Under the pieces are notes generated by a model. That model did not search any database and was not told the DNA's origin. It saw only the letters and a list, made by a program, of their open reading frames with translations. A stretch of DNA of 38,003 bases from Jaapia argillacea MUCL 33604 (taxonomy: Eukaryota > Basidiomycota > Agaricomycetes > Jaapiales > Jaapiaceae), in the NCBI GenBank assembly GCA_000697665.1, contig KL197760.1:155052-193054 (forward strand). Reading direction: 5' to 3'. Numbering within the stretch: position 1 is the stretch's first letter; each line of letters begins with the position of its first letter. The position numbers and the translations under genes are program-made. Below are positions 6,271 to 29,300 of the stretch, one piece after another.

Positions 6271-6285
6271 CTAATTCGCGGATGA

Positions 6286-7020: not shown

Positions 7021-8076
7021 TCACTGAACGAGTAGTTCCTCAACCCCAGCCCTCCCAGCTTCCCAATCGACCCTAACCCAATTATGCACTAGTTCACCAT
7101 CCCGGTAGACCAGCAGCGTCGGTAACATATCTTCATCAACATTCGAATTCTCCTCCTCTTCTTCATTCCAATCTTCATCGCCTCCTCCACCATCACCACC
7201 CTCATCTTCGTCCGAATCTTCTTCGCGGATGAAGGCTCCGGGAATTCGAGGACGGGAGGAACGGAGCTGAGAGCTTCGGGAACGAGATTTTGAGGTGGAG
7301 GGTTTCGAGGCGAAACCGATAGCTCCTGCTCGGCATCGAATGAACTTGGTTTGAGTGTGAATGCGAGCGAGTCGAGAGAGTGTGTCATCCAGAGCATAAC
7401 ATCGGTCCAACGACTATGGCACCAACGGTTCAACAAAGGTATTAAAGACGCAAAAGAGTGACATACCGGAGAATAGATGTGAATGACAACCCAAACCGCC
7501 CTCGACTCCTGCTCTATAGCAGGTAAATAACCTCTCGCCCCAACCTCCCTCAAATGTCCGAACCGACCCTTCTTCCCAGGCTCACCAAACGTAACCCCAG
7601 GAAAGTCGCCATCAAGCATAACCTTCTCCCACATCCTTTCCTCGTCTTCCTCCCTATATGTTTTCGCACTCAACGCAGCCTTCTCCATCTTCTTATTCAA
7701 CTCATCGATCTCGCGCGCTTTGACAGATTTCGTGGCTTGGTCAGACTCGATCTTGTCTCGGATGACTCCTTTGACACCAGTTCGACCTTGGACGCCTACT
7801 CCGGTATTACCGGTATTGGAAGATGAAGAGAGAATTCTGTCGATGGCTTTGGAACGTTCTTTATCGGAGTCGTAGTCTTTACCGTCGTCGTCTTCGTCGT
7901 CGGAGAGATTGAGAGTGGGCCATGAGGAGGAGGGAGAAGGCGCTCGAATTGGCGAAGAGGATCTTGAGGAGGGTTGGAAAAGTTTCCCGGAGAGGACGAG
8001 TTCTTCGAGTTCAGCCTTGTATCGGGTTTTGAGGATGTGGGATTCATATTATGAGATATTTCAGAGGGCGCACCAT
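7021..8076 (-). CDS. Phosducin-like protein with thioredoxin-fold domain, 314 aa
   Basis: Phosducin-like proteins bind G-beta subunits and the CCT chaperonin and help assemble G-beta-gamma in the cytosol. Exons on the minus strand are 8076-8074 (ATG only), 8015-7467 and 7413-7021. They give 315 codons with introns of 58 and 53 nt. After an N-terminal AELEELVLSGKLF and an acidic linker (SDDEDDDGKDYDSD) comes the phosducin-type core: a helical segment, FGHLREVGARGYLPAIEQES, VWVVIHIYSP, LARIHTQTKFIRCRAGAIGF, and at the end LPTLLVYRDGELVHNWVRVD. A long insertion of Ser/Arg residues and then an acidic Gly/Glu/Asp run (about 60 residues) separates AIGF from LPTLLVY. The one-codon first exon rests on an in-frame TAA upstream of exon 2 and on a matching ATG-GT in pseudogene copy 1. 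The gene is divergent from the 665-aa gene. Confidence 0.85.
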
Positions 8077-8873
8077 GATTGAAGGAACTTGTTTGGGCTG
8101 GAAGGAGGCAACTGTACTTGTTCGCGACCGGGATGGTCGGATCCGTCAAATAAGACGGACTCGGTCAGGGGTGGACGAAACTAGACGAAGTTACTTGGAA
8201 GTATTGGAGATTCCTTTGTATCTGGCGTGGATATGCCGTTGAAATTTGTGAAGATAAAAGTGGATAAAGCGCGGAAAGTCGAGAACCTTGACGGAGAGGA
8301 GGGAAACCAATTCCAATCTGCTGATGGATCGTGACACGCGACAAACCAGTGACTTCCGTGACACCAAGCTCTCCAGTGACATTCATGTCGGACTGTTTGC
8401 ATACCCGTTTCTCCCGCCTTTGAACCATCAAGAAGATTAACTTTCGATATAACATTGTTCAAAGCTTGCCTTTGGAAACGCGGCGCAGAGGGTCTGTTTC
8501 TCAGGACATCGCCTGAGCGCTTATATTGCTTTCGGAACGGCCCTGCGACTCTTTTAGTGCGATATGACTCTCAAGGTTCTGTCCAGATCAATCACAACGG
8601 CGTTGACCATTGTGGTCGTCTCAGGCAATGTACTGTACTGCAGTTTGGCAGTCTTCGGTTGATCGTCGAGGAGTTATGAGCGCTTCATGCCCACAATATG
8701 TATCCTATTTTGTTGACTTGTCAAACTTCGTTGCACTGCTTCCTCGTCCTTCAAATACCGCAGTGCACTCGTCAATCTGTCCGTCCAATCTCTCTCATTC
8801 TCCTTCCAATCATCCTAGTGAGTGCATCACCTGAGACCTTCCATTTCGTCACTCACCGAAATTCGATAAAGAA
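8077..8873. promoter_or_regulatory. Divergent promoter region between PhLP and 665-aa gene
   Basis: About 0.8 kb separates the start codons of two divergent genes. Large parts are conserved, inverted, upstream of the 658-aa paralogue at about 27.9-28.5 kb, and in part near 30.29-30.58 kb. One shared block contains GGAACGGCCCTG followed by TTTAGTGCG. The conservation shows that the duplications carried the whole regulatory region. Confidence 0.55.
8331..8380. promoter_or_regulatory. Cluster of four GTGAC motifs in the divergent promoter
   Basis: GTGAC occurs at 8331, 8349, 8358 and 8376, four times in 50 bases. The corresponding regions of the two other cassette copies carry the same motif in the same orientation relative to PhLP: five GTCAC at 28261-28301 and three at 30295-30319. 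The sequence between motifs differs, which fits a repeated protein-binding site better than plain duplication. The binding factor is unknown. Confidence 0.4.
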
Positions 8874-10871
8874 ATGGGGGTTTCCGTCGCACTTACAGCG
8901 CTTGTCATCGCTTTCGTCGCACTTACAGCGCTTGTCATCGCTTTCGTCGCCCTCTTCGTCGCCCTTCTCCAGGTCGCCCAGCAGTACGCCTCCTCGTCCG
9001 AGGCTCGAGGCAAAGTGAACACCGCCGCCATCGGCCGATGGTCACGCAAGAATAAGTATCGTTGGAGTTTCTGGGAATGGAAGCTTCGAGTTAGATATGC
9101 TCGTCCAGTCCTGACATCTGATATGGCCATGGATATGATCAGCGCGCAAGAAAACCTTCGTAGTGAACGTTTGCCATCCATTCCAAACGTTGCCGTTACG
9201 AGGCGAACTCATCTTTCCGACGGACGTAATGGCCCTCAGATTAGCGCACCTCCGAAGTTAATCTTTACTCGACGAGATGCGGAAGACCAAAACGAGATTC
9301 CCCTCGAAGAACTCCCGCGTCGTCATCGGCGAATAGCCAAGGCTGTCGAGAAAGAAATGGCGAGAGAGTACTTACCATCGGTGCCCTGCAAGGCATCCTG
9401 GTGCAATCTGATGAACGACATTGGACTTGATCCTGAGGCTGTCCCAAGTACCGAGATGCTCGACGCCGATCTCATCATATCCTCTCTCGATGCACCTACC
9501 ATGCAAATTCGCCTGTCCGACCTCATTGACTTCGGTCTATTGCTTGGCATGAAGGTCGTTGAAGTTGATGAAGATAACCACGTCCTCACTATGACTGGGA
9601 GACACTGCAGTATCACTACGCGTTACTGCGAAGGCGTGGGACAACTCTCACGATACTCTGGCATGGCACCTCAGATCCAGCCCATCGTTCGAGCGGCTAA
9701 TCCTCAGGAACTTCGCACCGCCATGCGAACTGCTACAGGGGTCCTTCAGCTCGGTGACTCTTTCGCGCTAGTGCCAGACTGGGGTTATAACTCGATTGAT
9801 TTGGTCTTGGGTACAGCATTAGGAAAGGCGGAGGGGGAGGATTGGAAGAAAATCAGTATCAAAGATACCATGGCGCTGGTTGAAGCTGACTCGGACATCA
9901 AGTGGGGAGGTAAATGGCGACACCCCAAAACATCCTCTCTCCGATGCTCGTTTGCCCTATTTTCCAACGTGGCAGTCGTCAACGCCTTCCCCCATGTGCT
10001 CCTGCATGGCTGGACGATAGAGGAGCGAAACGCCGCGTGTCTTGCCGCGATTGATGAGATCCATCGTTCGGTCGAGTTTATCGAGGCTCCGCAAAGGCTT
10101 TTCCACACCATTCGAGAGAATGGAATCGACATCTTAGTCATGGACTATTTCAAGGCTGCGAATAACTATGGATGCGAGTATGGGGGCCTGCGTGGTTGGT
10201 TATCCACCAATCACGCCGTTTTCACAGCACGACTAGCAAGGTGCTGGCCTGTGGACCACATCACCGAAAGGGTTCCGATTCTTCCGCGTCTCTACGCCGC
10301 CCTCAAGGAAGCAGCATTGCAGCCCGAGTGGTGCAAAACTTACGATCAAGCCCACGTCGCCGTAGAGGGTAAGACGGGCAAAGGGGATGAAGGGCCTGGT
10401 TGGAGAATGACGGCCAATTCACTCCTTTGGATGCAAATTACGATGTTGGATACTTGGATTGGCCGAAAAGCCGATCTCATGACCGGACGGGTTTCGGACG
10501 AGGTCGCCGTCCCTGCTGATCTCGTTACCGCGACGACCCAGTCGAACATATCAATGCAGCGGCCGCAGACCACGGCGTGGAAGAAGTCTAGAATGGAATT
10601 CGCGCGGGCGTATTTGTCTCGATTGGCGGAGGGAGCCGATGGGAAAGCCGTCAGTTGTATGTCTATGGGGGTAGGAGATGGGGTAGCCCAACCAACCCTT
10701 GGCCCTGCTGGTTGGGAAAATATGGCGTTCGGAAAACCTGAAGACTGGGCAGCCATGGATGCTGTCCTTACGCTGCGTTCGATGCTTATGGTGACACGGT
10801 TCGAGATCATGAACGACTCTTCGGTGTTACTTCGCCTTCGTCATTTCAATCCGGTCGTACTGCTCGCATAG
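8874..10871 (+). CDS. Membrane-anchored protein of unknown function, 665 aa
   Basis: A single uninterrupted exon. Residues ~4-34 form a long hydrophobic helix, followed at once by a Trp-rich basic segment (RWSFWEWKLRVRYARP, about 64-79). Further on are a KASWCNLMNDIG motif (~173), LSDLIDFGLLLGMKVVEVD, a GVGQLSRYSG stretch, and ILPRLYAALKEAALQPEWCK. The layout (N-terminal anchor, Trp-rich juxtamembrane region, K-A-S/T-W motif, then L-G-M and G-x-G segments) reminds me of the modin family of filamentous ascomycetes. That comparison is from memory. I do not know a biochemical activity. The gene is divergent from PhLP, convergent with the 354-aa gene, and has a close full-length paralogue at 25746-27722. 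ATG at 8874 is supported because MGVSV matches MAVSV of the paralogue. Confidence 0.85.
   Translation: MGVSVALTALVIAFVALTALVIAFVALFVALLQVAQQYASSSEARGKVNTAAIGRWSRKNKYRWSFWEWKLRVRYARPVLTSDMAMDMISAQENLRSERLPSIPNVAVTRRTHLSDGRNGPQISAPPKLIFTRRDAEDQNEIPLEELPRRHRRIAKAVEKEMAREYLPSVPCKASWCNLMNDIGLDPEAVPSTEMLDADLIISSLDAPTMQIRLSDLIDFGLLLGMKVVEVDEDNHVLTMTGRHCSITTRYCEGVGQLSRYSGMAPQIQPIVRAANPQELRTAMRTATGVLQLGDSFALVPDWGYNSIDLVLGTALGKAEGEDWKKISIKDTMALVEADSDIKWGGKWRHPKTSSLRCSFALFSNVAVVNAFPHVLLHGWTIEERNAACLAAIDEIHRSVEFIEAPQRLFHTIRENGIDILVMDYFKAANNYGCEYGGLRGWLSTNHAVFTARLARCWPVDHITERVPILPRLYAALKEAALQPEWCKTYDQAHVAVEGKTGKGDEGPGWRMTANSLLWMQITMLDTWIGRKADLMTGRVSDEVAVPADLVTATTQSNISMQRPQTTAWKKSRMEFARAYLSRLAEGADGKAVSCMSMGVGDGVAQPTLGPAGWENMAFGKPEDWAAMDAVLTLRSMLMVTRFEIMNDSSVLLRLRHFNPVVLLA
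8886..8945 (+). repeat. Perfect 30-bp tandem duplication inside the anchor helix
   Basis: Two identical 30-base units (8886-8915 and 8916-8945) encode the repeated decapeptide VALTALVIAF. The paralogue at 25746-27722 has a single unit at this place. The duplication lengthens the hydrophobic helix by ten residues without changing frame and is evidently recent. Confidence 0.9.
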
Positions 10872-11314
10872 GAGCCCCCCCTCCATCTTGGCCAAACTTA
10901 TTCTTTGACTTTATTATCTTGTTTGTAAGCGTCAACAATACCCTATGGATGGTTTGTCAGAATCGCAGTTATCTTACTCGCCCATACTCGTCCTTCTACT
11001 TTGACTCCATTCGCGTTCTTTTGTGCTGGCCTATTAGTCGACCCCAGAGAACTTTTTGAACCGTCTGTCCACTGTGCTGTGCTGTCGATCGCGCGATCTC
11101 CTTTCTTGCTGCACCTTTGTCGACAGGGATTTTGGATCTTTTCGTCAGAATCGGTTTGATCATTTGGAATAGTGTGTTACGATCGCCTACTAATGTGTAC
11201 GAATAAAATTATGTCACTTCTTCTGAGCAATGTGCAGCGACTCTACCCAGATCTGCTCAACCGAACCAATAGGTTTAGTGTTGGCAGTCCAAACACCGGA
11301 GTGATAAAAGCGTG
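10872..11314. other. Convergent intergenic region, 3' ends of two genes
   Basis: This stretch lies between the stop of the 665-aa gene and the stop of the convergent 354-aa gene. It is T-rich on the plus strand just after 10871, as expected for polyadenylation. I see no gene. Confidence 0.4.
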
Positions 11315-12672
11315 TCATCCAACGTAGGTAACGTTCACAAAAGGGGAATACACATCCTCCTGATTCGGTCGTAGCTGTCTCCTCTGTCCCGACACAGCCA
11401 AGAGACCCCTTGACGACGTTTCTGTCCATCCGAAAATGTCCTTCCATGACCCGTGACACCAAGTGGCCATCGCCATGATGATCGCAGGGTCGCGCCAGGT
11501 ACAAGGGAGGATAGGAGTGAGATGAACATCAGTCATACCGCCGTTCCTCACTATTGGCGGTGTGGGTTAGGTCAGAATCGAATGTACGGAAGTAAATGAA
11601 GCCGAGACTGACTGGGTTCGAAGTAACCAAATGCCCATTGATTCCAGGATGAGATGACGAATTGATCTGTACGCTCTTCGATGCATTGTTTCACGATCTA
11701 TAGCCGAACGGAAGGATTATTCAACGGATTGCGTTGGTCGAAAAGGAAACTCACGATATACCAAATCGTTTCTGCGCGGGCAAAATTATCAGACTGGTCG
11801 TTCTCGGTGCTGCGGCGGGTAGGCTACGCAAGCGCGTTAGTATGATACCTCGGATCGAACAGAAGGAACATGCACGGACGGGACCTGTCCCCTTCCAAGA
11901 CACAAGGAGTTCAAAGACCTCGGGAGTAAGATAGCTGGGTATGAATACAAATGCTTGAGAATCAAACGGCCCTTCGACCTGAGAATCATCCAAGTCATCA
12001 GTAAAAATGCGCCACAACGAACATGAAGAGTCACTTACATACATAGATGGATTTCTGTTCCTCAGAACCCAACGATGACAGATCTCTCCAACGCCCATAT
12101 CAGGGAGCTCACTTCTCCATCTTCCAGCGCTTTCAGCCTGAGGGTCGGGAGACATTGAGAGTTCATTAACTGTGAGAAAGATGTAGAAGCCGATGTCAAA
12201 GTAGAGGGTGTTATGATGCGTCAGGGTTGAGAATTTGTGGGCGACTTTGTTTCGCCAGAGCTCTGCGATGTTGGCTACGATTTCACGTGCGGATGTCTGA
12301 TGGTTTTCGCCCCAGGAACTCTGGAGATCTAGGGGCGACGAATAATGAGATAGTAATGGAGCGGTGAGTGACGGAGTGGTACATACAATTTGCGACGCGA
12401 TACTCCAGCATATAGAGTGATATTGGAGTTACATTGGGCGACTCCGTGAGGGATCGGGAGGCGATGACGGGCAAGGGGTTCGGCGCGACGCAAGGAGGGA
12501 GCCAGTCACCCAGATCTTGGAATTCGTCGGGTATCTTCAAGAGGCTGAATTCCTCAACATCGGTGGGTTTGGCGAGCAAGGAGGGGTCCTCATGCCACAT
12601 CGCTGAGAAAGCTCCAAAAGCTGATTTGAGAGTTGTCTTGACGGTGTGTTGTTTTGGTTTGAGGGACGACAT
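11315..12672 (-). CDS. Unknown protein family, copy 1, six exons, 354 aa
   Basis: First of three intact paralogues. Minus-strand exons are 12672-12387, 12328-12039, 11978-11880, 11823-11755, 11697-11613 and 11550-11315. The sum is 355 codons, with intron phases 1,0,0,0,1, the same as in copies 2 and 3. Shared motifs are VKTTLKSAFGAF near the start, TPISL before intron 1, RWVLRNR before intron 2, GPFDSQAF and TPEVFELLVSWKGTGP in exon 3, RAETIWYI at the end of exon 4, FVISSWNQWAFGY in exon 5, and GSWKDI in exon 6. No signal peptide or membrane helix is visible; it looks cytosolic or nuclear. I recognise no domain and assign no function. The start at 12672 (MSSLKPK) matches the starts of the paralogues; an upstream in-frame ATG at 12762 exists. 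It is convergent with the 665-aa gene. Confidence 0.8.
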
Positions 12673-13438
12673 GAGAGTTAGGGGATCAGGTGAGAGAGAA
12701 GAATTGGGGATGGTCTCAGAGATTTCGAGCGAGGCTTTGTATTGACGGTTTCGCCCCATCAAGGTGACCTGGGAGGCAGTACATTCTCCATAGTGAACAA
12801 GCCGTGAGAGGGATGCGTGATCCAGACAATTAGAGGGCTCAGTTGAACAAGTAGTTGAACAAGGACGGTCGTCAAGATATCCCAGGTTTTTCCAGAGCTA
12901 GACAAGAAGGGCCACAGAAGCGGACTAGGAACGGTTGCATACCCTGGGTTTGACTGTGTGGCGGACAACAAGTAGCAAGCGATCGAACCTGGTGGCGGTG
13001 GCGGTCCCTGATCTCTTGTTTGTTTTTGTGTTGCAAAGCCTTCCCGATCTAACAAGGACAAAACTTGCTCAGCCACCAGCCATCAACCGTCCGAACTCCA
13101 TCAACCAGCTGTTCTTTCTCTGCGACGATACGAGAATTTCGAACCGACTCACCGAACACGCCTTTATCTTTATCTTTGGCTGGAACAGCTATCTCCGTCT
13201 ACTGGAAAACGGCCCTTGCGAGATTTCTTGTCCTGATATTTGCAACTGAAGTACTGGATGTGACACAATGACGCCCGTACCTTCGCCCCCCCCTAGTCCA
13301 AATCCACCCTTTAAGGCTTAAATACCGTGCCTTCAGCAGCGCTCTCGTCTATCTGCTCGTCACCCCCTTACAGTTCCTCTTGCCGACTCAGCTGAGTATC
13401 TTCAATCTTCAAACCCGTTCGGAACTCCCATAACGACG
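12673..13438. other. Intergenic region between the 354-aa gene and the next plus-strand start
   Basis: It holds the presumed upstream region of the minus-strand 354-aa gene and, at its right end, a pyrimidine-rich stretch (about 13340-13430) with TTAAGG and TTAAATACC just before it, which looks like a promoter for the ATG at 13439. A 22-base motif at 13034-13055 recurs at 23472-23493. Open frames here are short and not recognisable. Confidence 0.35.
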
Positions 13439-14114
13439 ATGTCATCGGAGGCCACTTTCGAGAGAGGCACCAGTCAGGATATTTTCAAGTCGCCGAGTCT
13501 GCACGCACGATCCAAAAACCGGTTCATCTCGAGATTTTGTAGTGATTGTCAGTATTCTCATTCGCCAGGCCCTTTCCTGACTCTTCCCTGGTGCAAAATC
13601 ATCTCCTTCGTCGAAGTATCAAACAAGTAGTCAATAACCAGATCCCGGAAGTTTCAATCTCGGTATTGGCGCTTCTGGTTGTATTGATAGACAAATTGGC
13701 GCCCAGTGCAACGACCTCACCACACCCTGCGCTTCTGGCAAGGCACTCCCCACAGCCGACCAATGGCGAGTTTCAAGGGACTTCATTTGCGGTATCGATG
13801 ATATCGATAGACGACATGGGTGCTCCGTGCAGCACATCCTCTACACGCTGGACAGATGTTTCCAACATATCGTCTCATATATAGCTTCTCGTCCTTCGGA
13901 ACGTGTGCCAAATGGCGTCTATTGCCGACTATCCTCACAAATTAGGTCATCAAGTTCGGCGCATGTTATGCTCCGTTGGCCTCGTTGTTTCATCGTGCCA
14001 TCCTCTCCGTGCCCACGCCTGGAGTTCCTTAAATCTGTGATTCGCAACCCTCCCCCTCCCCAGTCATTCTTTTTCTCTGCAATCCTGGCTCATGATGTTC
14101 GAGTATGCCTCTGA
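13439..14114 (+). CDS. Possible two-exon Cys-containing protein, about 193 aa, unknown
   Basis: Exon 1 (13439-13547) starts MSSEATFERGTSQDIF behind a promoter-like CT-rich leader. A GT-AG intron of 94 nt joins it in phase to a frame open from 13642 to the TGA at 14112-14114. That frame includes GASGCIDRQIGAQCNDLTTP and SRDFICGIDDIDRRHGCSVQ, which look coded rather than random. The 3' end is doubtful: the last part overlaps the start codon proposed for the C2/NLR gene at 14105, and its composition turns low-complexity after about 13930. It may be truncated, end by an unseen splice, or be part of the NLR gene. No domain is recognised. Confidence 0.35.
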
Positions 14115-15478
14115 AATTCTCTTCCCTTATTACCTTGCGCTCACTCAAGCTCAACAGCGACCGTTACTACAACGTCACCATCCACGGTACAGTCGCTCCC
14201 CCTATGCCCTGAACAGATAACCCTAATTCTTTCCTGCAGATTTGTCGATTGAAGATCTGCAGCTACCAATGGGTAGTAGGACCACCGGTTGCTTCCTCTC
14301 GTTTCACATCAACGGACACGAACGACGAGTCTCGACCATAAAGCAAGCTCCTAATCCGTCTTGGGACGGGGAAGAATGGAAGCTGTGCGTCAATCGTTCT
14401 CTTCTCGTGAGAAAATATGCTTCACGAGGCCATGTCCGGACAGTGAAGTCAAGAAAGGCGAATCAATTGAGGTCATCGCCATCCACAAAGGACGAACTCG
14501 AGACTGAGTCGTTGGGCATGCCACAGTCCACTTTGAGGATATTCATGAATCAGCATCGGACAGCCGTCAGTTTATGTCTCCCCGTCGGAAATATGGTTTC
14601 CTGATGATTTGCTGGATTCTCAGTCATCACCCTCAATTTGTCGAAATGGACTCACTTGAGCAGCAGGGGCCTGATCAAATTACGCGTCGCCGATATAGGA
14701 AACCATCGACTTGACGACCCAAAGATGGGTCGAAAACCCCATCATGGTCTTGTATCTGAAGCTCACGACGCCGTCGTTGCTTTACGGGTCGATATGCCAT
14801 CCTTCTACAAGCCCTTGCGCCTCGTGGCCGAGCATATGAATGTTGTTCTTGGTATCTTCGAAAATATAAGTGAAGTAAGCTCCCGGCCCTGGTTGTGTCT
14901 TTGATAGAGTTTCCAAGCTAACAGGACACAACTCAGATCCATGGTGTTCTTCAAGCAGCGTGCAAGCTACTCACAGCAGCATACAAGGTGATTGGCGACT
15001 CGTCACACCCAACCGGACTGCTGTCTGAATCTATCCAGGTGCTCGAAGCTCAGCGTCAACGAGACGCGCACGTTGTTGAACTATCGAAGGCTATGCTCCA
15101 TCTGTTCACATGGTCCACAGCAGTCAACAGTCTCAAAGATCAACTGCATTGCCTCAAGGACACCGTTAAAAGGATGGCTGATCACTCCCTCTTATGTGCG
15201 CAGTTTATTCGCAAGTATGTTTCTCAAGGTTTCGTTCGTATGTCGTTCGCGCAACATCTCTTCAGGATCGCTTCTCATTTTTTATCTTAGGCCACATGAT
15301 CTGGAGCCCCGATAGCAAGTTGGCCGAATTGATTGATGGATGCAAGGAATTGCGCGAAACATTCTTAGTAGACCTCGGGGTGGCGAACCTTGCTGGGGTG
15401 GATGAGCTAAAATGCCATCAAAGTACCCATCCACAATACCTATCTATATCGGTGAAGCTGACGATCCCCATTCGATAG
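14105..15478 (+). pseudogene. C2 domain plus NLR-type N-terminal helical region, truncated
   Basis: This is the front of a mushroom NLR-like (STAND) receptor without its NTPase. Exon 1 (14105-14186) and exon 2 (14240-14384) encode a C2-like domain: LRSLKLNSDRYYNVTIH, then MGSRTTGCFLSFHINGHERR and NPSWDGEEWKL. Exon 3 (from 14429) continues it with GESIEVIAIHKGRTRD but hits an in-frame TGA at 14505-14507, after which VGHATVHFEDIHESAS continues the domain. Downstream, IHGVLQAACKLLTAAYK, QRQRDAHVVELSKAM, LKDQLHCLKDTVKRM and CAQFIRKYVSQGF match the helical region that precedes NACHT domains in agaricomycete NLRs. GHMIWSPDSKLAELIDGC and LRETFLVDLGVA follow. The frame then ends at 15478, before any P-loop. 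The stop codon plus the missing NACHT point to a pseudogene or a decoy-like remnant. Confidence 0.6.
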
Positions 15479-16771
15479 TATTCAGAGATGATGATGAAGA
15501 CACCGATGACTCTGATTACGACGATTCCCACCATCGGATCGCATCCCATCGGGTTCGACTACCCATTGGACTCCCAGAGCTCGCTTACCAATGTCACGAA
15601 CGAGAGGGGAGTAGGACATCTTCTAGGGTCTGAAACCATCTCATGAAGGAATCACCATCTCACTCACGGCTTCGAGGTGATGATTTGTGATACCGCTTTC
15701 TATTTCTCAGAATCTCGCCCATATTCCAATCATAATCTCATCCCGGGGATCCCCTTCCTTGACATCCACGGTTCTATTCTTCCCGTACTTCTCCGATCTG
15801 GCATCGACGAATTTATATCAGTCTCACCCCTAAATTCATCCTTGTGAACTGCTGCGCCTTGCTGGGCTGGAATATGCCGTCACTTCGTCATTCACGTTCA
15901 CTATCTACCAATTCTTCAACATTTTTTGTAGTCCAACATTCACGAGCTTCACTTCGGACCACCGCGACTCTAACCTTGCTACTCCCATTTCTCGACATCG
16001 AACGCCATCTCGAGGCACCTTCAAAACTTCAAATGCGAACAGGATCCCCGAGGAGCATTATTCGATCCCGGGATGGGGGCGAAGAACAATAATGTGATTG
16101 CAGGTAGCCTGGAAATCCATTCAGGCGAATTTTCCCGACTGCCGACATCTCATTGGTCTTGAATCTGGCCAAGCCCGGATACACCAGGTTCGAGCAGGCA
16201 GCAATGGAGGCCCTAGCGAGTTATCTCGCCCGACGCTTCATGTTCAAACGAGCTATATATCGGATATGGAAGGCCACCAGGGAGACGGAATGGGCGCTCC
16301 GAGGCCAATCCTTTCTTGGGTTAGGGTTACCCCACACTTCTCGCCCATTTCATCTCCATCGTGATTCATGGTCGGTCACCGGACCACAGTTCTGACCTTC
16401 GGACCGATACTTCTCTTACCCGCAAAGGTCACCTGTCAAACACCACACCTCGAACAATTCCCTTCGATAACCACCTTTAACCGCGATCAATTCACTTCAC
16501 ATGAGGCGGGATACTTTAGTTTCGAAGGATCTTCGAGCTTCATGTGTGGTTCCGGTGCCGTTAAGGGTGCTACGAAACTCGGACATCCTGGAATTGATCT
16601 AGTACAGGGGTAGTTTCCCCAGTGTATCCCCGGACTCTCCCCGAAAACCATGACCTCGATGCATTCCCTGAAGACCTTCAAGTAGCTAATAAAGGCCTGC
16701 GCTGCTTCTCTCTATCGTCCTTATCTTCCATACAATCATCCTTTGGAAGCCCCTTCCTCAAGGGTGCAACG
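15479..16771. other. Region without an intact gene; possible remnants, then transporter promoter
   Basis: Several moderately long plus-strand frames occur (15412-15633 acidic, 15844-16092, 16153-16395 with FEQAAMEALASYLARRFMFK, and 16368-16613) but they do not join into a product I recognise. They may be debris from the truncated NLR gene or from another lost gene. The last ~150 bases are the presumed promoter and leader of the sugar transporter. Confidence 0.35.
16617..16633. promoter_or_regulatory. Two candidate CreA/Mig1-type sites upstream of the transporter
   Basis: CCCCAG at 16617-16622 and CCCCGG at 16628-16633 both fit the reverse complement of the fungal catabolite-repressor consensus SYGGRG, about 140-155 bases upstream of the transporter start. 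Paired sites in front of a sugar porter are biologically sensible, but six-base matches arise easily by chance. Confidence 0.3.
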
Positions 16772-18900: not shown

Positions 18901-19209
18901 TTTTTGGATGAGCTTTTTTGTTGATGATTTTTTTACGAGCTTGGATGAAATATATGTTCTCATGGTCATTTGTACTTGTACACTCCACATCTCTGTTCGG
19001 TCCGAGACGCAAAAAGACAGGTGTTCAAAGCCTTCATCATACTGGTTTCGTACAGATTTCCCATGTAAATAAGCATAACTACTGGAGAGTAAACCGACAC
19101 GGAAACAGCTGATATCGGTGTGAGTCACATGGTCGGAGAGTGGGTGTGAAGACAACCAGAGACCATTTTCTCTCGTACGACCGATTGTGACTACACCACT
19201 CCTGATTCC
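18901..19209. other. Transporter 3' flank
   Basis: T-rich sequence directly after the transporter stop fits a 3' untranslated region. The rest separates it from the convergent small gene that stops at 19210. No gene is seen. Confidence 0.4.
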
Positions 19210-19919: not shown

Positions 19920-20083
19920 CAGACATCACCGATTGGCCCAAGCGTGGGAACATTCCGCCACCGACGCGTTCAATGTCGCGCTCAATTCAGCGACGCGTCT
20001 TTCGCGATCTAACCTCCTACCCAGTGTCCAAGTTCTCGTCCGCCATGGATGGATGCCTTCCTCTAGCTAATGGGGTCGACTGT

Positions 20084-20635
20084 ATGTTTAGCTTGAGCCC
20101 TTGGCCCAACGGGAAGGTATGGTCTATAGCTTGATGCAAAACCGAGATCTGACCCACCCCACTTTAGCCCAGATCTATCGAAGCTTTTCCATGGCCAAGT
20201 CCCACTCTTCCGGAGAAATACAAAGTTGCCAACCCGCGCGACTACCGTCGTCGCGACCAGGTACCACTCCTCATATATGGAATCGAATGTTCAACACAAG
20301 AGATTATGCGCTACGCCAAGAAATACAAGCTTGGACCCGAGGAGTTCTGGGACAGCGACAACAAGCTGCACGTTGCGTGTGTTATCGAAGATGTGATCCG
20401 TCGTTTGAATAAGCGTACCAGATACAAGATCCACTTTCGTTTTCCCGTCAGCAGGAGCGGCTGGACTGGAGTTTTTGGGATTTACTCGAACCATCGATTT
20501 GTGGAAGAGGAAATGACCGAGGAGGAGGAGGAGGTGGATGTTTTCAATATCTTGAATGAGGAGTTGGGAACCATTGGTCGACCACCGATGTGGCATTGGG
20601 ACGCTGGTAACCATTGGGATCCTTGGTATTCATGA
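20084..20635 (+). CDS. Two-exon protein of unknown function, 166 aa
   Basis: Exon 1 (20084-20116) encodes MFSLSPWPNGK. A 51-nt intron with a CTGAC branch-like site before TTTAG joins in phase 0 to exon 2 (20168-20635). The product contains LPEKYKVANPRDYRRRDQVP, LLIYGIECSTQEIMRYAKKY, KLHVACVIEDVIRRLNKRTR and GWTGVFGIYSNHRFVEEE, then an acidic run and an aromatic tail ending WHWDAGNHWDPWYS. No signal peptide or membrane helix is visible. It looks like a small soluble protein; I do not recognise the family. Upstream in-frame stop codons fix exon 2 as internal. It reads in the same direction as the following 354-aa-family gene, 0.5 kb away. Confidence 0.65.
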
Positions 20636-21134
20636 AGTTGACCATCGTGGGTGCGTGTTTTTGCCTCCTATGGATCATTCAATCATACTCAGCTCCGAGA
20701 ACCTACACTAGGATAAAGTCCAGAGAGTTTGGGCCGTTAGTTTCTTCCGCTCCCTCGTCGTGACCTATATTACAATTATCTCCCTATGGCTTGAAGCTTG
20801 AGCTTGAGGAGCTGAACCGAATGTTGTGTCTGTTCAGTGTTCGATATGCAAGGCTTTAGAAAAACAACCGCAAATAGAAATGTGTGCCGATAGCGTCTGC
20901 CGAAAGTGCCGCCCCAACGCCAAGAGGTGGTGGGCAACACAGCTTTGCAGTGCAGACCAAGGCCGAGATGATTATCTGAATTCATCTGAACCGCCCTTCT
21001 TCCACGCAGCACAAGCCATGCATGCGTGGCTGACCGATCCTGAACCTCGCTTTTTCGAAACAAGAGGCAGTTGTTCCACGAACTCATAAAGCTGGTTCCT
21101 CCTCGATTGCTCGTTCCTCAAATCTCTCACTCTC
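20636..21134. promoter_or_regulatory. Upstream region of the second 354-aa-family gene
   Basis: No convincing gene. Frames at 20826-21089 (+) and 20776-21087 (-) shadow one another. The last ~60 bases before the ATG at 21135 are pyrimidine-rich, as in many fungal leaders. Confidence 0.35.
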
Positions 21135-22483
21135 ATGTCTATTCGATCTCTATTCTCCCCCGAGCCCAAATCTGATGCTGTCAAAACAGCTCTCAAGACC
21201 GCTCACGGAGTCGTTTCTGGTATCGCACAGGAAAACCCTGTACTTCCTATCGTCCCTTGGGAAATCGGGGAAGTGAGCCTTAGGAAAGACCCTGATCTTT
21301 ATGAGGATTTGCGAGATCTAGGGCTCACGAACTATAAATCTCGTCCAAATACCATACCGCCCGCTTATACTCAAACCCTCACCGATTCACCCACCGTGAT
21401 CCCAATCTCGTTCGGGAATCTGATGGGACGTGTTAATCAATGTACGTTGTGTCGACTCTTTTCAACCCGTCGCTCCTGACCGTCTGCCCGACAGACCTCA
21501 AAAGCCACAAAGGCGAAACACTCCCTACTTCAACTCGTCGACACATGACAGGCCTCCTCTGGCTCTACAGAGAACAACTCCCCGTCAACAGAACGCAGAT
21601 GACACACCCAGTCGACTCGAACGATTTCATCGAATATTACGTGCTTCAAATGGTCAATATGTTGTTAGCTGCGAGGGGGATTTGTTCTGTCGATCCGAAG
21701 ATCTCGACTGCTGGTATGTGGACACGGAGGAAAGTGGAGAGTGGGGCGAGAGATGTTTGTGTTAGGTGGGTGTTGAGGAATCGATTGGATTCGGTAGGTG
21801 ATCAGAATGTTTGTGGTGGGTTTGGTTTGTTGATTGGTGGATGGTTTTAGCATGGTCCTTTTGATGCTCAAATGTTCGGATTCGCTCCTTGTTACCTCAC
21901 GCCCGAGGTGTTTGACCTCGTTCGATCTTGGAAAGGAACAAATCGCGTACGTGGATCTTCGTCCTCCACTTTATGGATACTATATTGATGTGCTTCCTGT
22001 AGCCTTCCAGCGACAGTCCCGACAAGGAACAGTTAGATATCTTCGTGCGGGCAGAAACGATTTGGTCCATCGTAAGTTCCCTCCTATATCATTCTCCGTC
22101 AGCTGAATAACCTTTTCGTTCGGCTATAGATCCTGGAAGAATGCGGTGAAGACGATACCACCCAATTCGTCATCACATCATGGGATCAATGGGCGATTGG
22201 TTACATCTCACCCGGTCAGTATTGTGTCTCCATCTTCTCGTGCCATCAACTCTAACCCGATATCTGTCTTGTAGGTTCGGAGGGGAATTCGAAAGAAGTT
22301 TACGTAACACCTATCCTCCCTTGCAAGTCCCAAGAACCAACGATCATTTTGGCCATGGTGACTTGCGGTATTCATCGGTCATGGAAGGAGTTTTTGGGAG
22401 GGCCGGAAACGACGCCATTGGAAGAAGTGGTGTCGGTGGTGGATAATTCGGTGACGGAGGAAATCACTGTGACTGAATGGTGA
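21135..22483 (+). CDS. Unknown protein family, copy 2, six exons, 354 aa
   Basis: Exons 21135-21441, 21495-21793, 21851-21946, 22003-22071, 22130-22214 and 22275-22483 total 355 codons, with intron phases 1,0,0,0,1 as in the other two copies. Conserved landmarks are VKTALKTAHGVVSGIA near residue 16, VIPISFGNLMGRVNQ before intron 1, NMLLAARGICS and AGMWTRRK in exon 2, HGPFDAQMFGF and FDLVRSWKGT in exon 3, RAETIWSI closing exon 4, ILEECGEDDTTQFVITSWDQ and WAIGY in exon 5, and HRSWKEFLGGPE in exon 6. It ends with an acidic tail. Function is unknown. Exons 3 and 4 have exactly the same length as in copy 3, which supports recent common descent. A relic of the 665-aa family follows about 0.2 kb downstream on the opposite strand, so this too is a partial cassette. 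Confidence 0.82.
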
Positions 22484-22704
22484 GGGGTGCGTTCTTTGAT
22501 TTGTCGGAGCGTATGCTTCCATCATTCTAGCTTTTCGGATGATACACATTGGACCTGCTGGTTAGGTTATACAAAACTGCATTGCCAGAAAACTGAGCTC
22601 GTAAGGGTGATACAAGTTCTCACTATACTGGGTTCGGGTTATAATCCGTTGTTGCGTGCGCATGAACGAACCGGATCCTGAATCCTAGATCCATGTGCAG
22701 CTCT

Positions 22705-22830
22705 TGATTTCGTCCGCCAATCGAACCAAATACGCCCACACAAAGATCTAGTTCTGCACGCCGTGATATGCAGGCGTGAAATCTACCTGTCGCGCAGATC
22801 GTTCCTGTAACCAGATCGTAAGGTAGCAGC
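22705..22830 (-). pseudogene. Relic fragment of the 665-aa gene family
   Basis: The plus strand here matches the plus strand of the minus-strand 658-aa gene near 25985-26110: CCGCCAATCGAACCAAATAC against the same sequence with a G for A, then TGCACGCCGTGATATGC against CCACGCCGTGGTTTGC, then a weaker stretch around GGTAACGAGATC. It corresponds to the C-terminal third of the protein. All frames are broken. It lies downstream of, and convergent with, copy 2 of the 354-aa family. Confidence 0.55.
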
Positions 22831-23471
22831 GAGGAGATGGGTGGGATGGATGTGGTATCTTGAGCCTAGAATGGCGGACTGAAGGGTGCGAAGCGTCGTA
22901 TTCAGGAGCCTCGTGGATTATGACGATCCAAGCAAGCACAGGTGTCGTACCAACGGGAACACGCAAGGATCTTCAAGCGGCGGATCGTCGAATGGGACTT
23001 ATGGGATAGTATGCAGCCTGAGGTAGTGAGTTAGTCAAAGCAACAAATGTAGAATTCCAGGAGGATGGAGGATGTCATACTCAAGCCTAACACTCCCCAA
23101 ACCAAGCTATCGACACGCATTGTTACAAAGTTCGAGCATCATGGATACGAAGGGGAACGCGCGCCGTGTACCACCGATATCCTTCTCCCAGTGTGGTCAG
23201 GGACTCAATCCTAAATCCCAATACTGAATAAAGTTGCAAGATCTGGTCATAACGGGCGAGCTTGTGCGCCTAGCGTACGTCTCACTGGAATTAATGGGCG
23301 GACGAGGTTACTTCTTGAGACCTCGGTTTGGCTGGAATCCTGGGCGGAACAGGGAGTAATCGATCAGGACAAGCTCAAGTAAAGGCTGAAGCGCTCAAGC
23401 TGACCGCGCTGTTGACGCTGCCAACTTCGATGGATCCGGCCCAGTGGCTGAAGTGATTTGTGGTTGTTGTC

Positions 23472-23493
23472 CAAAGCCTTCCCGATCTAACAA
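23472..23493. repeat. 22-base motif shared with 13034-13055
   Basis: The sequence CAAAGCCTTCCCGATCTAAC followed by AA occurs here, 316 bases upstream of copy 3 of the 354-aa family, and at 13034-13055, about 360 bases upstream of copy 1. Both are on the plus strand, so orientation differs relative to the two genes. Flanking bases are different. It may be a regulatory element or a leftover of a repeat. Confidence 0.45.
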
Positions 23494-23808
23494 ACACAAA
23501 CACAGCTGCAGGTTTCGCAAGCGCCACTCACTGGCACTCAGCGAAGTTCGCCACAATTGTTGGCGTACAGCCTCGTGGACAAACGCTGAGATTCCTATGC
23601 AACCATTCTTGTTCCGCTAAGACTTGGCTAAGACCTTCGATGGCTTGGTGGATCAATGCCTCTCACGTATTGTTCTCTGCGGCTTATCGTTTCCTAGATT
23701 AGGTTGTGGCCTGCGCTGTGGGGCAAACCTTTTAAAGCCCCTGCTCGACGTTCTCTGGCGATGCTTCACTGTCACTATCCCACGTCTTTATCTCCCAAAT
23801 AATCCTCC

Positions 23809-25150
23809 ATGTTCTCTACCAAGCCCAAAGAAGATGCTGTCAGGACAGCTCTGAAGTCGGCTCTTGGAGTTGCCTCTTCGATGGGACACGAAAGACCTCC
23901 CTTACCCACCATACCTATGCCGTTTGAGGAAATGTGCCTCATGAAGAAAAACGACAAGTACAGCGATCTGGACACTCTCTGGCTCACCCCTTACGAAACC
24001 GAGATCCGCACGCCACTCGAGCCCGCCAGCTACTCCGAATCTATAACTCAGCTGCACACTGTTATCCCAATATCCTTCGGGAGCCTGAACAAACGTGTTC
24101 GAAAATGTAAGTGCTAGCGTGTCATTTCCCGTATGCCTCGGTTTGACTCGTTGTCCCCCGTAGTTCTCAACTGTCAATATGACGAGGACCTACCCGCAAC
24201 CACACGTCCATACATGAACGTCCTTGTATGGCACTGGAGGGAACAAATCCCTATGAAACGATTGGCTGCGAGGGATGTCCCCATGGGTAACCTCTTCAAT
24301 AACGTCTTCTACTTGGTCAATAAGCTCTTAGCGGCTCGCGGTATTTGCTCCGCTGACGCTAAGATTACAATGGCTGGGATGTGGACGAGACGTAAGCTTG
24401 ATGCGGAGATTCGAGATATCTGTGATCATTGGGTGTTGAGAGGCAGACAGGACTCGGTAAGTCGCATGAAGTGTTCTTGGTGAGGGTGAATGTAGACTCG
24501 GATGGTTTTTAGCACGGACCGTATGATGCGCAGGCTTTTGGGTTCTCGCCTAATTATCTTATACCACGCGTTTTCGACCTTATCAGATCTTGGAAAGGTA
24601 CAGGTCCGGTATGCACTCATTCATCCTTTGCTATCTTGGATATGAAGTTGACGTGTTCCCTTTAGCCTACTACTAGCAGCACCGATAACTACGAGGTGGA
24701 AATCTACAAACGCGCAGAAACGATCTGGTCCATCGTAAGCTTCCTCCCTTCGACCAATGTACATCCCACGAATAACCTTCCTACTCGGCTGTAGATCCTG
24801 GAAGAATGTGACGAAGGGGAGAACAGTCGGTTTGTCCTCACATCTTGGAATCAATGGGCGTTGGGTTACATCCTACCTGGTCAGTCTTGTTTCGTCACCT
24901 CCCTACACATTCGACCTAACCCCGAGTATCTGTCTCGCCAATAGCCTCGGAGGGCAACTCGAAAAGAGTTCATATCACCTCTATCCTGCATTGTAAATCC
25001 CGCGAGCCGACGATAATCGCGGCAATAGCGACTTGCAGTATCTATCGGTCATGGAAGGAATTTCTAGGAGGGGCGGAAATTGTTTCGTCGGGAGGAGTAG
25101 CGTTAGCGGTGGATGGTTCGGTGAGGAGGGAGGAAATCTCTGCGTCTTAA
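23809..25150 (+). CDS. Unknown protein family, copy 3, six exons, 348 aa
   Basis: Exons 23809-24106, 24164-24456, 24513-24608, 24666-24734, 24795-24879 and 24945-25150 sum to 349 codons, with intron phases 1,0,0,0,1. The product starts MFSTKPKEDAVRTALKSALG and has SFGSLNKRVRK before intron 1, NKLLAARGICSADAKITMAG and MWTRRK in exon 2, HGPYDAQAFGFSPNYLIPRV in exon 3, RAETIWSI at the end of exon 4, FVLTSWNQWALGYILP in exon 5 and YRSWKEFLGGAE near the C-terminus. It lacks any visible membrane helix or signal peptide, and no known domain is recognised. It is convergent with the 658-aa gene, mirroring copy 1 and the 665-aa gene. A decayed copy of exons 1-4 lies at 36935-37672. Confidence 0.85.
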
Positions 25151-25745
25151 CCGCGAGTATGCGTTCCTCTTTCGTGCATTGCGGAATGCAGACACATCGC
25201 TTCTACTTCGCCTGCTGGCCAGGTCGAACAGAGCTGAATGGAGTCGCTCCTCTCACAAATGCGATACAAATTGATTCGTACATATTACTAGGTACTCGGT
25301 TCTGGTCATCAGACGGAAGACGAAATTCATCACAACGAACAGATTGCAGTCCAGTCCGAGCGAAAATACGGCAAAGAAGTACAGTAGAGTGCGATACAAT
25401 ACAGAACATGTTCAAGTGAGTAGCATAGGATACGATTCTGGCAAAGCATTCGAAAATTATTGCGAACGAAGATCCTAAATACCGATAGTTTGTCAAAGGA
25501 AATGTACAACCAAGAAGTAGAATGCGTCACAACGCAAAAAAGCCGAGGGAAGATGGGAAAGGTTTGCTAGGGTTACACTGGGTCAACAAAGATAACGCTG
25601 AAGAGTTGAAAGAGAACGACGAAGGTAAGCGAGTAGCATAGGATATGATTCTGACAAACCATTCGAAAACGATCATGATTGCGGACCCTGGACGAACAAG
25701 ACAATGAAGACAAGAGATAACTTCAACCAAGATAGAGGAACGTCA
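25151..25745. other. Convergent intergenic region with a direct repeat
   Basis: No gene is visible. Two related ~60-base segments, about 25413-25475 and 25624-25685, share GAGTAGCATAGGATA, ATGATTCTG or ACGATTCTG, and CATTCGAAAA, about 210 bases apart. They lie in the shared 3' flank of copy 3 and the 658-aa gene. Confidence 0.5.
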
Positions 25746-27722
25746 TTATGCGAGCAGCACGGCTGGATCAAAATGACGCAGGCGAAGCAACACCGAAGAG
25801 TTATTCAGATTCTCGAACCGTGTCACCAAGAGCATCGAACGCAGGGTAAGGACAGCATCCATAACTGCCCAATCGTCGGGGTTTCCAAACGGCATATTTT
25901 CCCAGCCAGCAGGGCCGAGAGTTTGTTCAGCTACCCCATCTCCTACCCCCATAGACATACAACTGACGGCTCTCCCATCGACTCCCTCCGCCAATCGAGC
26001 CAAATACGCCCTCGCGAATTCCATCCTAGACTTCTTCCACGCCGTGGTTTGCGGAAGCAGCATTGATATGTTCGCCTGGGTCGTCGCGGTAACGAGATCC
26101 GCGGGGACAGCGACCTCGTCCGAAACTCGTCCAGTGAGGAGATCGGCCTTTCGGCCAATCCAAGTATCCAACATCGTAATTTGCAGCCAAAGGAGCGAAT
26201 TAGCCGTCATTCTCCAACCAGGTCCTTCATCCCCTTTCACCACCTTACCCTCGACAGCGACGTGGGCTTGATCGTAAGTTTTGCACCATTCGGGCTGCAA
26301 TTCATCGTCCTTAAGGACGGCGTAAAGACGTGGGAGAATCGGAACGCTGTCTGTGATGCTGTCCACAGGCCAGCACCTCGCTACTCGTGATGTAAAAACG
26401 GCGAGATTAGTGGATAACCAACCACGCAAGCCCCCGAATTCGCATCCATAATTGTTCGCAGCCTTGAAATGGTCCATGACTAGGATGTCGACGTCGTTTT
26501 CTCGAATGGTATGGAAAAGCCTTTGCGGAGCCTCGACGAACTTGACCGAACGATGGATCTGATCGACCGCGTTATGACACGCGACTTTTCGCTCCTCTAT
26601 CGTCCAGCCATGCAGGTGCACGTGTGGGAAGGCGTTGACGACTGCCACATTGGAAATTAGGGCAAACGAGAATCGAAGAGAGGGTGTTTTGGGGTGTCGC
26701 CATTTACCTCCCCACTTGACGTCCGAGTCACCTTCGAGCAGCCCCATGGTATCTTTGATACTGATCTCTTTCCATTCCTCCCCCTCCGCCTTTCCCAATA
26801 CCGTCCCCAAGACCAAATCAGCCGAGTTAAAGCCCCAATCTGGTAGTGCCGCGAAGGAGTCACCCAGCTGAACAACGCCTGTGGCAGTTAGCATGGCGAT
26901 GCGAAGTTCTTGAGGATTAGCCGCTCGAACGATGGGCTGAGTCTGAGGTGCCATGCCAGAGTATCGCGCGAGTTGTCCCACGCCTTCACAGTAACGTGTA
27001 GTGATACTGCAGTGTCTCCCAGTCATAGTGAGGACGTGGGTATCTTCATCAACTTCAACGATCTTCATACCCAGCAATAGACCGAGGTCGATGAGGTCGG
27101 ACAGGCGAATTTGCATGGTAGGTGCGTCGAGCGAGGACGCGATGAGATCAGCGTCGAGCATGTCGGTGCTTTCGACCAAGGCAGGATCCACTCCAATATC
27201 GTTCATCAAATTGCACCACGACGCTTTGCAGGGCACCGGCGGGGAGTACTCTCGTGCCAGATCGTTCTCGGCAGCCTTGACGATCCTCCGCTGACGACGT
27301 GGGAGGTCGTCGACGGAAATCTCGCGCAGGACTTCTGGATCCTCTGCAGATAGACGAAGCAAGGTCAGCTTGGGAACTGCGCTCATTTTAGGGCCATCGC
27401 GTCCGTCGGAAAGCTGAACCCGCTCCATCACGGAAACATTTGGAATCGATTGTAAAGATGCGGTACGAAGGATTTCATGTGTCTTGATAATCTCCATGGC
27501 GTTGTAAGATGTTAGAACGGGTCGAGCGTATCGAACTCGAAGCCTCCATTCCCAGAAACTCCAACGATAAGCGTTCTTGTGTGACCATCGCCCGATGGCG
27601 GCAGTATTAACCTTGCCTCGAGCCTCTAATGAGGAAGCGTACTGTTGGGCGACCTGGAGGAGGGCGATGGCGAGGGCGAATAAGGCGATGACAAGGGCTA
27701 CAAGTTCGACAGAAACCGCCAT
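25746..27722 (-). CDS. Membrane-anchored protein of unknown function, 658-aa paralogue
   Basis: A single exon, closely similar along its length to the 665-aa protein at 8874-10871. Shared features are the N-terminal helix (VALVIALFALAIALLQ), the juxtamembrane RWSFWEWRLRVRYARP, PCKASWCNLMNDIG, SDLIDLGLLLGMKIVEVD, CEGVGQLARYSG, ILPRLYAVLKDDELQPEWCK and the C-terminal LRLRHFDPAVLLA. It has only one copy of the helix decapeptide that is doubled in its relative. The open frame extends to an ATG at 27818, but the start at 27722 (MAVSV) matches the paralogue. GTGAGTATC just upstream followed by an AG suggests an intron in the leader. It is convergent with copy 3 of the 354-aa family and divergent from a PhLP pseudogene. 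Activity is unknown; a membrane-tethered cytosolic role is inferred. Confidence 0.85.
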   Translation of the reverse strand: MAVSVELVALVIALFALAIALLQVAQQYASSLEARGKVNTAAIGRWSHKNAYRWSFWEWRLRVRYARPVLTSYNAMEIIKTHEILRTASLQSIPNVSVMERVQLSDGRDGPKMSAVPKLTLLRLSAEDPEVLREISVDDLPRRQRRIVKAAENDLAREYSPPVPCKASWCNLMNDIGVDPALVESTDMLDADLIASSLDAPTMQIRLSDLIDLGLLLGMKIVEVDEDTHVLTMTGRHCSITTRYCEGVGQLARYSGMAPQTQPIVRAANPQELRIAMLTATGVVQLGDSFAALPDWGFNSADLVLGTVLGKAEGEEWKEISIKDTMGLLEGDSDVKWGGKWRHPKTPSLRFSFALISNVAVVNAFPHVHLHGWTIEERKVACHNAVDQIHRSVKFVEAPQRLFHTIRENDVDILVMDHFKAANNYGCEFGGLRGWLSTNLAVFTSRVARCWPVDSITDSVPILPRLYAVLKDDELQPEWCKTYDQAHVAVEGKVVKGDEGPGWRMTANSLLWLQITMLDTWIGRKADLLTGRVSDEVAVPADLVTATTQANISMLLPQTTAWKKSRMEFARAYLARLAEGVDGRAVSCMSMGVGDGVAEQTLGPAGWENMPFGNPDDWAVMDAVLTLRSMLLVTRFENLNNSSVLLRLRHFDPAVLLA

Positions 27723-28532
27723 TGCTTTGTTAGCTACTGTCAACGCATGGCAATCAATGAATAGCAAAATGGAAATTGTGTGATACTCACCAAGATGATG
27801 GAATGAGTGAGAGCGCACAGATGGGGTGGATAGAAGAGATTGCGGTATTTAAAGGATGAAAAAAGGCAGTGCAGCACGGTTTGACAAGTTGGCAAAACAG
27901 GATACATGTGGTCGTAAAGCGTCTAGCGGTCAGCTGTGGGCTTTACGCGGATGGGATTGACATGGACAGGGCGAAGGCCCACCGAGTGATCGATAATATA
28001 CAAGTCCGAAATGTCTGCCGACCTTTGGAGTAGCGTTGTGTGGCCATAAGTACCGCACTAAATGAGCAGCAGGGCCGTTCCAGAAGCAATACAAGTGCTT
28101 GGCAAATGAATCATGATGTGCAGAATATTGGGCTGCCCACTGTGTCGCGGGTTTAGAGCCTCGAGTCAGATTGATCCCTTCATGTTTCGATTGTGCCGAA
28201 GTCGGGAGAACAGACTTTGCTCGAATGTTTCGATTGCGCGAGGAGTTGGGAGGTTGGGCTGTCACACGTCACTTAGGCTCGAGTCACTAGTCACTAGTCA
28301 CTGCTGACTGGAGTCCGCCAAGTGCTTAATCAACCATTTCAGTATATTCCATCACCAGTATCAGCGGCGTATCCGCGCCAGACACTAGCACTGAGGAATC
28401 TTCAATACTTCCAACAAGCTTCCTCTAGTTTCGCCCACCCCGAACGAGTCCATTCTTCGACATATCTCACCCTCGCAGTTGCGGTACGAATACAATGTCG
28501 CCTCCTTCCAGCCCAAACCAGCTCCTTCAATT
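27723..28532. promoter_or_regulatory. Duplicated divergent promoter with five GTCAC motifs
   Basis: This region matches, inverted, the promoter between PhLP and the 665-aa gene. The stretch near 28040-28100 is the reverse complement of the block near 8520-8570, and TCAGCGGCGTATCCGCGCC near 28360 matches the reverse complement near 8230. GTCAC repeats lie at 28261, 28268, 28283, 28290 and 28297; three of these form the exact string AGTCACTAGTCACTAGTCAC. It still fronts an intact 658-aa gene on one side but only a pseudogene on the other. Confidence 0.5.
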
Positions 28533-29300
28533 ATGGTGAGCACCCCGAATCCTTCATGAGGCAAATCACCCAGGCTCGAAAATATATATCAGGATGAACT
28601 TGGAGGACTTATACTCTCAGAGAAACTTTCCCGCCCCCGTCGAGATCCTCTTGGCTGTCTATCGCTCCCTTCATGGCCCGCTCCGATGACGAATAAGACG
28701 TCGATAAGGCTGCGACTCTGATCAAGCACTTCCCAAAACTATCAGTAGCATCATGTCTTCGCCTTCCAACCCAGCCATACCGGAGCAGACGTCCAAGGCC
28801 CAACAGGTGTTAAGAACGTCATCCAAGACAACATAGACTCGGACCAAGCCGCAAAATCAATCTCAAAGCGCTTGAGAAGTCTGCACTGCGTGCGAAACCG
28901 TAGGGAGGGATGGGCCGTGGTGTGGGAGAATGTTACACTTGGCGAATCCAGGAAGGTTTGAGGTTTCGTATATTTCAGGGAGGCTGTGGCGAGGGGTTAG
29001 ATCCCCGGTATCGACGACAAGGGTTGTTTGCATCGTAACCTACATAGACTCTGGTACGCTTTTTCTTTCATGGTTTGAATGTCATTTTGAATCGTTGGTG
29101 TCACAGTCGTTGGATCAATGTTAAAATCTGAATACCCCGGAGCCGACTTGCTTGCAACCCACGCTTAATCCCAGTTCATTGGATCGACCAGGAGCGACCG
29201 ATCCCGCCCCAAAACCGTCTCCCTCATTCCGGAACATACCATCTTCATTCCTCCCATCCTCGAACTTCAGGATCCTTCATCTGTGAAGAGGATGTGGACC
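28533..29300 (+). pseudogene. Phosducin-like pseudogene 1
   Basis: Collinear with the PhLP gene at 7021-8076 on the opposite strand. It keeps the ATG followed by a GT donor (28533), the exon-2 start region (GAGAAACTTTCCCGCCCCCG near 28620 against the SGKLFQP coding stretch), the segment around GGGAGGCTGTGGCGAGGGGTTA, and the intron 2 region (TCTGGTACGC to CACAGTCGTTGG, about 29050-29113). It ends near the acidic insertion (CATCTGTGAAGAGGATGTGG). Frame is lost at many points. Because introns remain, it arose by DNA duplication, not retroposition. Confidence 0.75.

Follow-up and report, generated by a model that had tools for sequence, protein, structure and literature searches.

A duplicated and decaying gene block carrying two predicted gene families in the basidiomycete Jaapia argillacea

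Among the closest described systems are loci of fungal incompatibility. In the excerpts available, two papers on this subject (PMC12881547, PMC2873952) name HET, NLR and gasdermin domains, balancing selection and concerted evolution of repeats. Here we describe a locus of Jaapia argillacea MUCL 33604 in which a gene for a phosducin-like protein (PhLP) and members of two predicted gene families form an inverted duplication. The families are called 665-type and 354-type after the lengths, in amino acids (aa), of two of their products. The window analysed is a stretch of 38,003 nucleotides, positions 155052-193054 of contig KL197760.1 (hereafter C52), and its right edge is the end of that contig. 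Of the features named in the excerpts, concerted evolution is the one with a counterpart at our locus. The Podospora hnwd family, as presented in the part of PMC2873952 at hand, is similar in having paralogues that exchange sequence and a suspected repeat-directed mutation process. It differs in encoding STAND proteins with WD40 repeats, under diversifying selection at set positions, none of which was found here. The fungal het loci of the PMC12881547 excerpt share with our locus a rearranging organization and genes whose wider distribution is unknown, but no HET, NLR or gasdermin domain is detected by Pfam in the 665-type and 354-type families. Literature searches on Podospora modA incompatibility, basidiomycete incompatibility and inverted duplication gave nothing evidently on this locus among the matches listed, of which only parts were seen; this is not proof of absence.

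The locus is a real but mostly ordinary duplicated, decaying gene block, although no known domain was found in two of the gene families it carries. It is likely a birth-and-death cluster of local origin: segmental duplication would have produced the copies, which then traded sequence, with CpG decay affecting those on the transposon-rich side. The features of the two window copies are as follows.

7021-8300, minus strand: PhLP gene, 5' and 3' ends uncertain (Pfam PF02114; two-exon model joined by hand)
8300-8873, no strand: divergent intergenic region, homologous between left and right (314 of 555 aligned bases, 57%)
8874-10871, plus strand: 665-aa gene, left copy, L (open reading frame (ORF); ratio of nonsynonymous to synonymous divergence, dN/dS, 0.29 against R)
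11315-12672, minus strand: 354-aa gene fA, six exons (spliced model)
21135-22483, plus strand: 354-aa gene fB, six exons, without adjacent 665-type partner (spliced model)
23809-25150, plus strand: 348-aa gene fC, six exons (spliced model)
25746-27722, minus strand: 658-aa gene, right copy, R (ORF, repeat search, blastn and protein search of the genome)
28352-29439, plus strand: PhLP relic 1 (66.5% identity with the PhLP gene; each of the three frames of its strand carries stops)

Comparison of the window with itself by blastn gives an anti-diagonal made of three inverted matches. Region 8681-11024 matches 27921-25586 (81.7% identity, E=0), the PhLP stretch 7198-8251 matches 29311-28352 (66.5%, E=1.8e-74) and region 11419-11826 matches 25079-24663 (68.5%, E=5.9e-30). 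A repeat search of the window also recovers an ungapped inverted arm pair of 1595 nt at 87%. About 0.8 kb separates the probable start of PhLP from that of the 665-type gene in both copies, and the stop-to-stop gap between the 665-type and 354-type genes is 0.44 kb in one and 0.60 kb in the other. Thus, the inverted collinear duplication claimed in a preliminary description of this DNA is present, with the gene content, order and spacing of the mirrored blocks that it gave. Homology extends into the noncoding flanks, as in segmental duplications. In the divergent intergenic region, identity between L and R compares with 36-43% in 10 unrelated control stretches. The preliminary description saw there a conserved promoter; the region is indeed homologous, but conservation is not strong and lies in islands, such as 8516-8564 at 84%. 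Downstream, 388 of 631 bases are identical (61%), the 36-43% controls having been built for the upstream stretch. At least a sugar transporter gene (Pfam Sugar_tr) and fB lie between the two copies. An assembly artefact is ruled out because divergence between the window copies ranges from 13% in the best stretch to 39% in the downstream flank. The contig region around the cassette is duplication-prone. The three-gene cassette first described is real, though drawn too small: the unit reaches left to about 4.25 kb, a third copy exists on another contig, C87, and additional relics follow the right copy.

The 665-type family was searched for in the organism's own genome (43.7 Mb, 95 contigs), and all match counts from such searches are lower bounds. 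The 665-aa protein finds five places: L, R, a full-length match on C87 (49356-51299) and, within the window, two 3' relics. Under looser settings, the 658-aa protein, whose frame is extended to 690 aa in the ORF listing by an upstream GTG, returns the identical five. The C87 match is broken by one TGA, the only stop in the three full-length frames (0 in L, 0 in R, 1 in C87), whereas about 7-13 stops per frame are simulated under simple uniform mutation, with divergences that we set from the synonymous divergence (dS) values. A perfect in-frame 30-bp tandem repeat (8885-8950) adds 10 residues to the hydrophobic N-terminus of L compared with the 658-aa copy. An AlphaFold2 prediction from the two sequences has a mean pLDDT of 31.4; the sole 10-residue block of the 658 model with a mean above 70 is an N-terminal helix (residues 11-20, 77) of hydrophobic sequence. 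Since this helix is hydrophobic and lengthened in L, the 665-type protein is probably anchored to a membrane by a single N-terminal hydrophobic helix. The hydrophobic N-terminus followed by a QQY...IGRW-type stretch is a possible likeness to modin-like fungal proteins, which have an N-terminal hydrophobic helix. Literature searches gave nothing on modin combined with Podospora and incompatibility, or with vegetative incompatibility.

In the 354-type family, fA, fB and fC have open frames and five GT-AG introns in corresponding places. Splice sites were picked by hand from comparison of the paralogues, and the gene models are predictions without RNA evidence. The shortness of the introns, like the presence of a DUF6589 element, is in keeping with a basidiomycete. 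Own-genome searches with 354-type proteins give matches on C52 and C87 only, so that neither family was seen beyond these two contigs. As initially proposed, the two families keep intact frames in both window copies (665/658 ORFs, fA and fC models).

The PhLP gene behaves differently. Its model matches Phosducin (PF02114) with 49 bits for a cut-off of 23 (E 5.3e-13), and it is the only intact close copy found in the genome; a protein search (E up to 0.1) returns the gene itself and relic 1 only. Its duplicates here are relics. The decay announced for the second copy is therefore confirmed, with two tandem relics instead of one; the second, like the first, is interrupted by stops in all three same-strand frames. 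A spare PhLP gene would have been dispensable and would have decayed. Alongside the PhLP relics, blastn reveals at least three relics of 665-type genes in the window, at 29.6, 30.0 and 31.4 kb. This mixture of intact genes and pseudogenes is that of a birth-and-death cluster.

29586-29766, minus strand: 665-type 3' relic (78.6% to 10738-10918)
29998-30198, minus strand: 665-type 3' relic (72-74%)
30385-31424, plus strand: PhLP relic 2, a tandem duplicate of the first (69.7% to 28352-29439)
31432-31580, minus strand: 665-type relic (68-69%)

The complete unit is composed of a flanking segment, X, followed by the PhLP, 665-type and 354-type genes, and forms the inverted pair in the window; in the right copy X and PhLP persist as relics only. 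The repeated unit includes the noncoding flank X because C87 matches it at 39.4-41.8 kb. X was considered as a gene and rejected, as its similarity is distributed over all frames and stops are present. The flank and the features of the contig end are listed here.

4246-6555, plus strand: X, flanking DNA of the duplicated unit in which no open gene was found (blastn 66-73% to C87 39.4-41.8 kb)
31803-33490, plus strand: broken Tc1/mariner-like transposon (Pfam HTH_23 24.2 bits of 24.6 and DDE_3 28.1 of 28.6, both just under cut-off)
35996-36188, minus strand: 665-type internal relic (35996-36062, 80.6% to 26275-26338) and DNA common to C87 (42035-42217)
36717-36855, minus strand: truncated X relic of the right copy (84% to 6452-6532; 79% to C87 41649-41783)
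36921-37672, plus strand: D, frameshifted piece of a 354-type gene (about aa 61-253), truncated by a dispersed repeat (83.1% to 23993-24751)
37674-38003, plus strand: end of a dispersed repeat, where the contig stops (9 genome matches including itself, all beginning at one base)

X, the 665-type gene and the 354-type gene recur, broken, at the end of C87. There, the 3' end of a 354-type gene (aa 281 onward) is convergent to the 665-type gene and is followed by an 87-bp tandem repeat up to the contig end. DUF6589 and helicase pieces lie between X and the 665-type gene; protein search and blastn give no PhLP match in that interval. At the end of C52, the right-copy X relic (36.7-36.9 kb) sits beside the 665-type scrap and D. 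D and the C87 354-type fragment complement each other, as if the two contigs, C52 and C87, met at these ends. This join is unproven: about 185 bp of the 354-type gene are missing between the two breakpoints, and the two contig-end repeats never occur together in 5 stretches with repeat copies, taken from 9 and 21 matches listed. The 87-bp repeat (C87 52057-52444) has related copies on 9 other contigs. In one stretch with a copy of the 37674-38003 repeat there is no ORF of at least 250 aa.

The three copies L, R and C87 allow the history of the unit to be followed. Within the 665-type coding sequence, L and R are closest (14.6% of sites differ, against 23.1% for R and C87). From the 665-type stop codon into the last exon of the 354-type gene, R is closest to C87 (22.1%, against 37.8% for L and R). 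With all differences counted, the coding-sequence order is reversed in 0 of 400 bootstraps and R-C87 is below L-R downstream in 400 of 400, whether or not CpG sites are masked. If transversions alone are counted, 0 to 1.3% of bootstraps, according to the site set, reverse the coding-sequence order, and none reverses the downstream order. The nearest copy thus changes along the unit, as in concerted evolution. Since it switches at the stop codon while the L flank is still homologous, sequence has passed between the aligned copies, or at the least no single tree fits them all. Repeated copies would trade sequence through ectopic recombination or gene conversion, and such exchange would prevent the 665/354 pair from evolving as one block.

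Several points weigh against exchange between copies. The argument is built on three copies and on 406-521 flank sites, and differences in rate between the copies could contribute to the discordance. A run-length test of the GENECONV kind on the L and R coding sequences finds no discrete tract (p 0.45 with all sites and 0.13 with third positions), and divergence at 4-fold sites does not differ significantly before and after codon 195 (p 0.21). One 4-fold block has 1 difference between L and R in 35 sites, compared with 45 in 172 elsewhere (Fisher p 0.0014), but it was chosen post hoc from six.

A single, simple event of inverted duplication taking in the whole cassette, followed by rapid protein change in the 354-type family only and by no later exchange, would account for the matching gene order and spacing and for the homologous flanks on both sides. 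We regard it as unlikely, and it is already disfavoured by the change of nearest copy at the stop codon, by the extra tandem relics and by the divergence of the genes themselves. By the Nei-Gojobori method (bootstrap ranges in parentheses), dS is 0.369 (0.30-0.44) for L and R and 0.963 (0.77-1.26) for fA and fC, an approximately 2.6-fold difference with separate ranges. Values of dS near or above 1 are close to saturation for this method, a further caution for the reading by exchange. The other pairs give dS of 0.687 (L/C87), 0.601 (R/C87), 1.368 (fA/fB) and 1.481 (fB/fC).

Another explanation is that the 665-type and 354-type genes are a functional pair, one product membrane-anchored and the other soluble, which selection keeps together for recognition or conflict, PhLP being a passenger. 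Consistent with this, each of the three full-length genes of the 665 type, one of which has a stop codon, stands convergent to a 354-type gene, neither family is seen elsewhere in the genome, and both are constrained. The dN/dS ratio is 0.29 (0.22-0.37) for L/R, 0.28 for L/C87 and 0.33 for R/C87, and 0.53, 0.38 and 0.24 for fA/fC, fA/fB and fB/fC; as judged from these ratios, both predicted families are under constraint. Three-point splitting gives branch values of 0.22 (L), 0.40 (R) and 0.31 (C87) in the 665-type family; given the last of these, loss of the frame in the C87 copy was probably a late event. The only fast-looking branch is that of fA, at 0.78; its bootstrap values spread very widely (0.41-5.06), and 29% of them exceed 1. 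Nevertheless, we find a functional pair rather improbable. Close linkage is no proof of joint function because the entire block, including noncoding flank, was copied, and adjacency is expected from block copying alone. As assembled, two of the five 354-type loci (fB and D) have no full-length 665-type neighbour; D would gain one if joined to the C87 fragment. The left pair is of mixed age, dS differing between its two genes, and the closest copies differ across the 665-type stop codon. On C87, the 665-type gene carries its stop and the 354-type gene is shortened by the repeat at the contig end. The idea that the pair is the retained unit is therefore not supported. Nor is a fast-evolving locus borne out, as every pairwise dN/dS is below 1 (0.28-0.33 in the 665-type family, 0.24-0.53 in the 354-type family), values that show no diversifying selection.

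A recognition or conflict role of the locus is no more than a possibility, and a partnership of the two proteins is a guess. The stronger proposal, that they make up the two halves of a fungal system for recognition or conflict, so far undescribed, in which the 354-type protein is the diversifying specificity partner and the membrane partner was homogenised by gene conversion between inverted copies, is very doubtful. No Pfam family, HET, NLR and gasdermin included, scores over cut-off for 665, 658, fA, fB or fC. NCBIfam has no match for the 658-aa protein and fC, IMG/VR contains no relatives of these two, and the PDB offers no credible relative of either family. In bacterial and archaeal contigs, 52 stretches fit the 658/665 alignment pattern, but none encodes a relative. 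Matches of a three-sequence 354-type profile to PHO23 (best E 0.0067) cover a short stretch (profile positions 68-133) and were treated as chance.

That the unit is the cargo of a self-copying transposable element is highly improbable: the surroundings are repeat-rich, with the broken DDE transposon (31.8-33.5 kb), pieces of DUF6589 and helicase on C87 and, at the ends of both contigs, dispersed repeats, but the repeat listing of the window shows no repeat pair bounding both copies, the gene families were not found outside C52 and C87, and the transposon pieces lie in or beside single copies, none being seen common to copies.

Transposons enter the birth-and-death reading in another way. The C87 branch of the 665-type genes has 127 GC-to-AT transitions and 68 AT-to-GC transitions (p 2.9e-5), and 66 of the 127 are at CpG; the L and R branches are unbiased (33 vs 38 and 39 vs 35). 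The observed/expected ratio of CpG is 0.70 in the C87 gene (49353-51302) compared with 1.10 and 1.12 in the 665-type genes of the window. It is 0.75 in D and 0.45 in the last part of the window (32000-38003). This suggests that the contig end at 32-38 kb and the C87 copy may be methylated, transposon-rich DNA; the apparent pattern of CpG loss is that expected from methylation of repeat-rich DNA. Copies landing beside transposons would lose CpG, as under cytosine methylation, and then die. The PhLP relics have ratios of 0.90 and 1.11; since they are not CpG-depleted, their decay is not of this type.

On the other side of the cassette, two observations were made. A separate tandem duplication lies to its left, positions 5124-7259 of the C52 segment 145052-155051 matching window 504-2634 at 78%. 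Window 2826-3794, minus strand, holds a 322-aa ORF with weak C2H2 zinc-finger matches under cut-off.

The locus provides two constrained predicted gene families without a Pfam match over cut-off or a credible PDB match. If its mosaic history is true, it would be a compact natural case of a duplicated block with one gene homogenised, the neighbouring gene diverging, and silencing-type CpG decay where the transposons lie.

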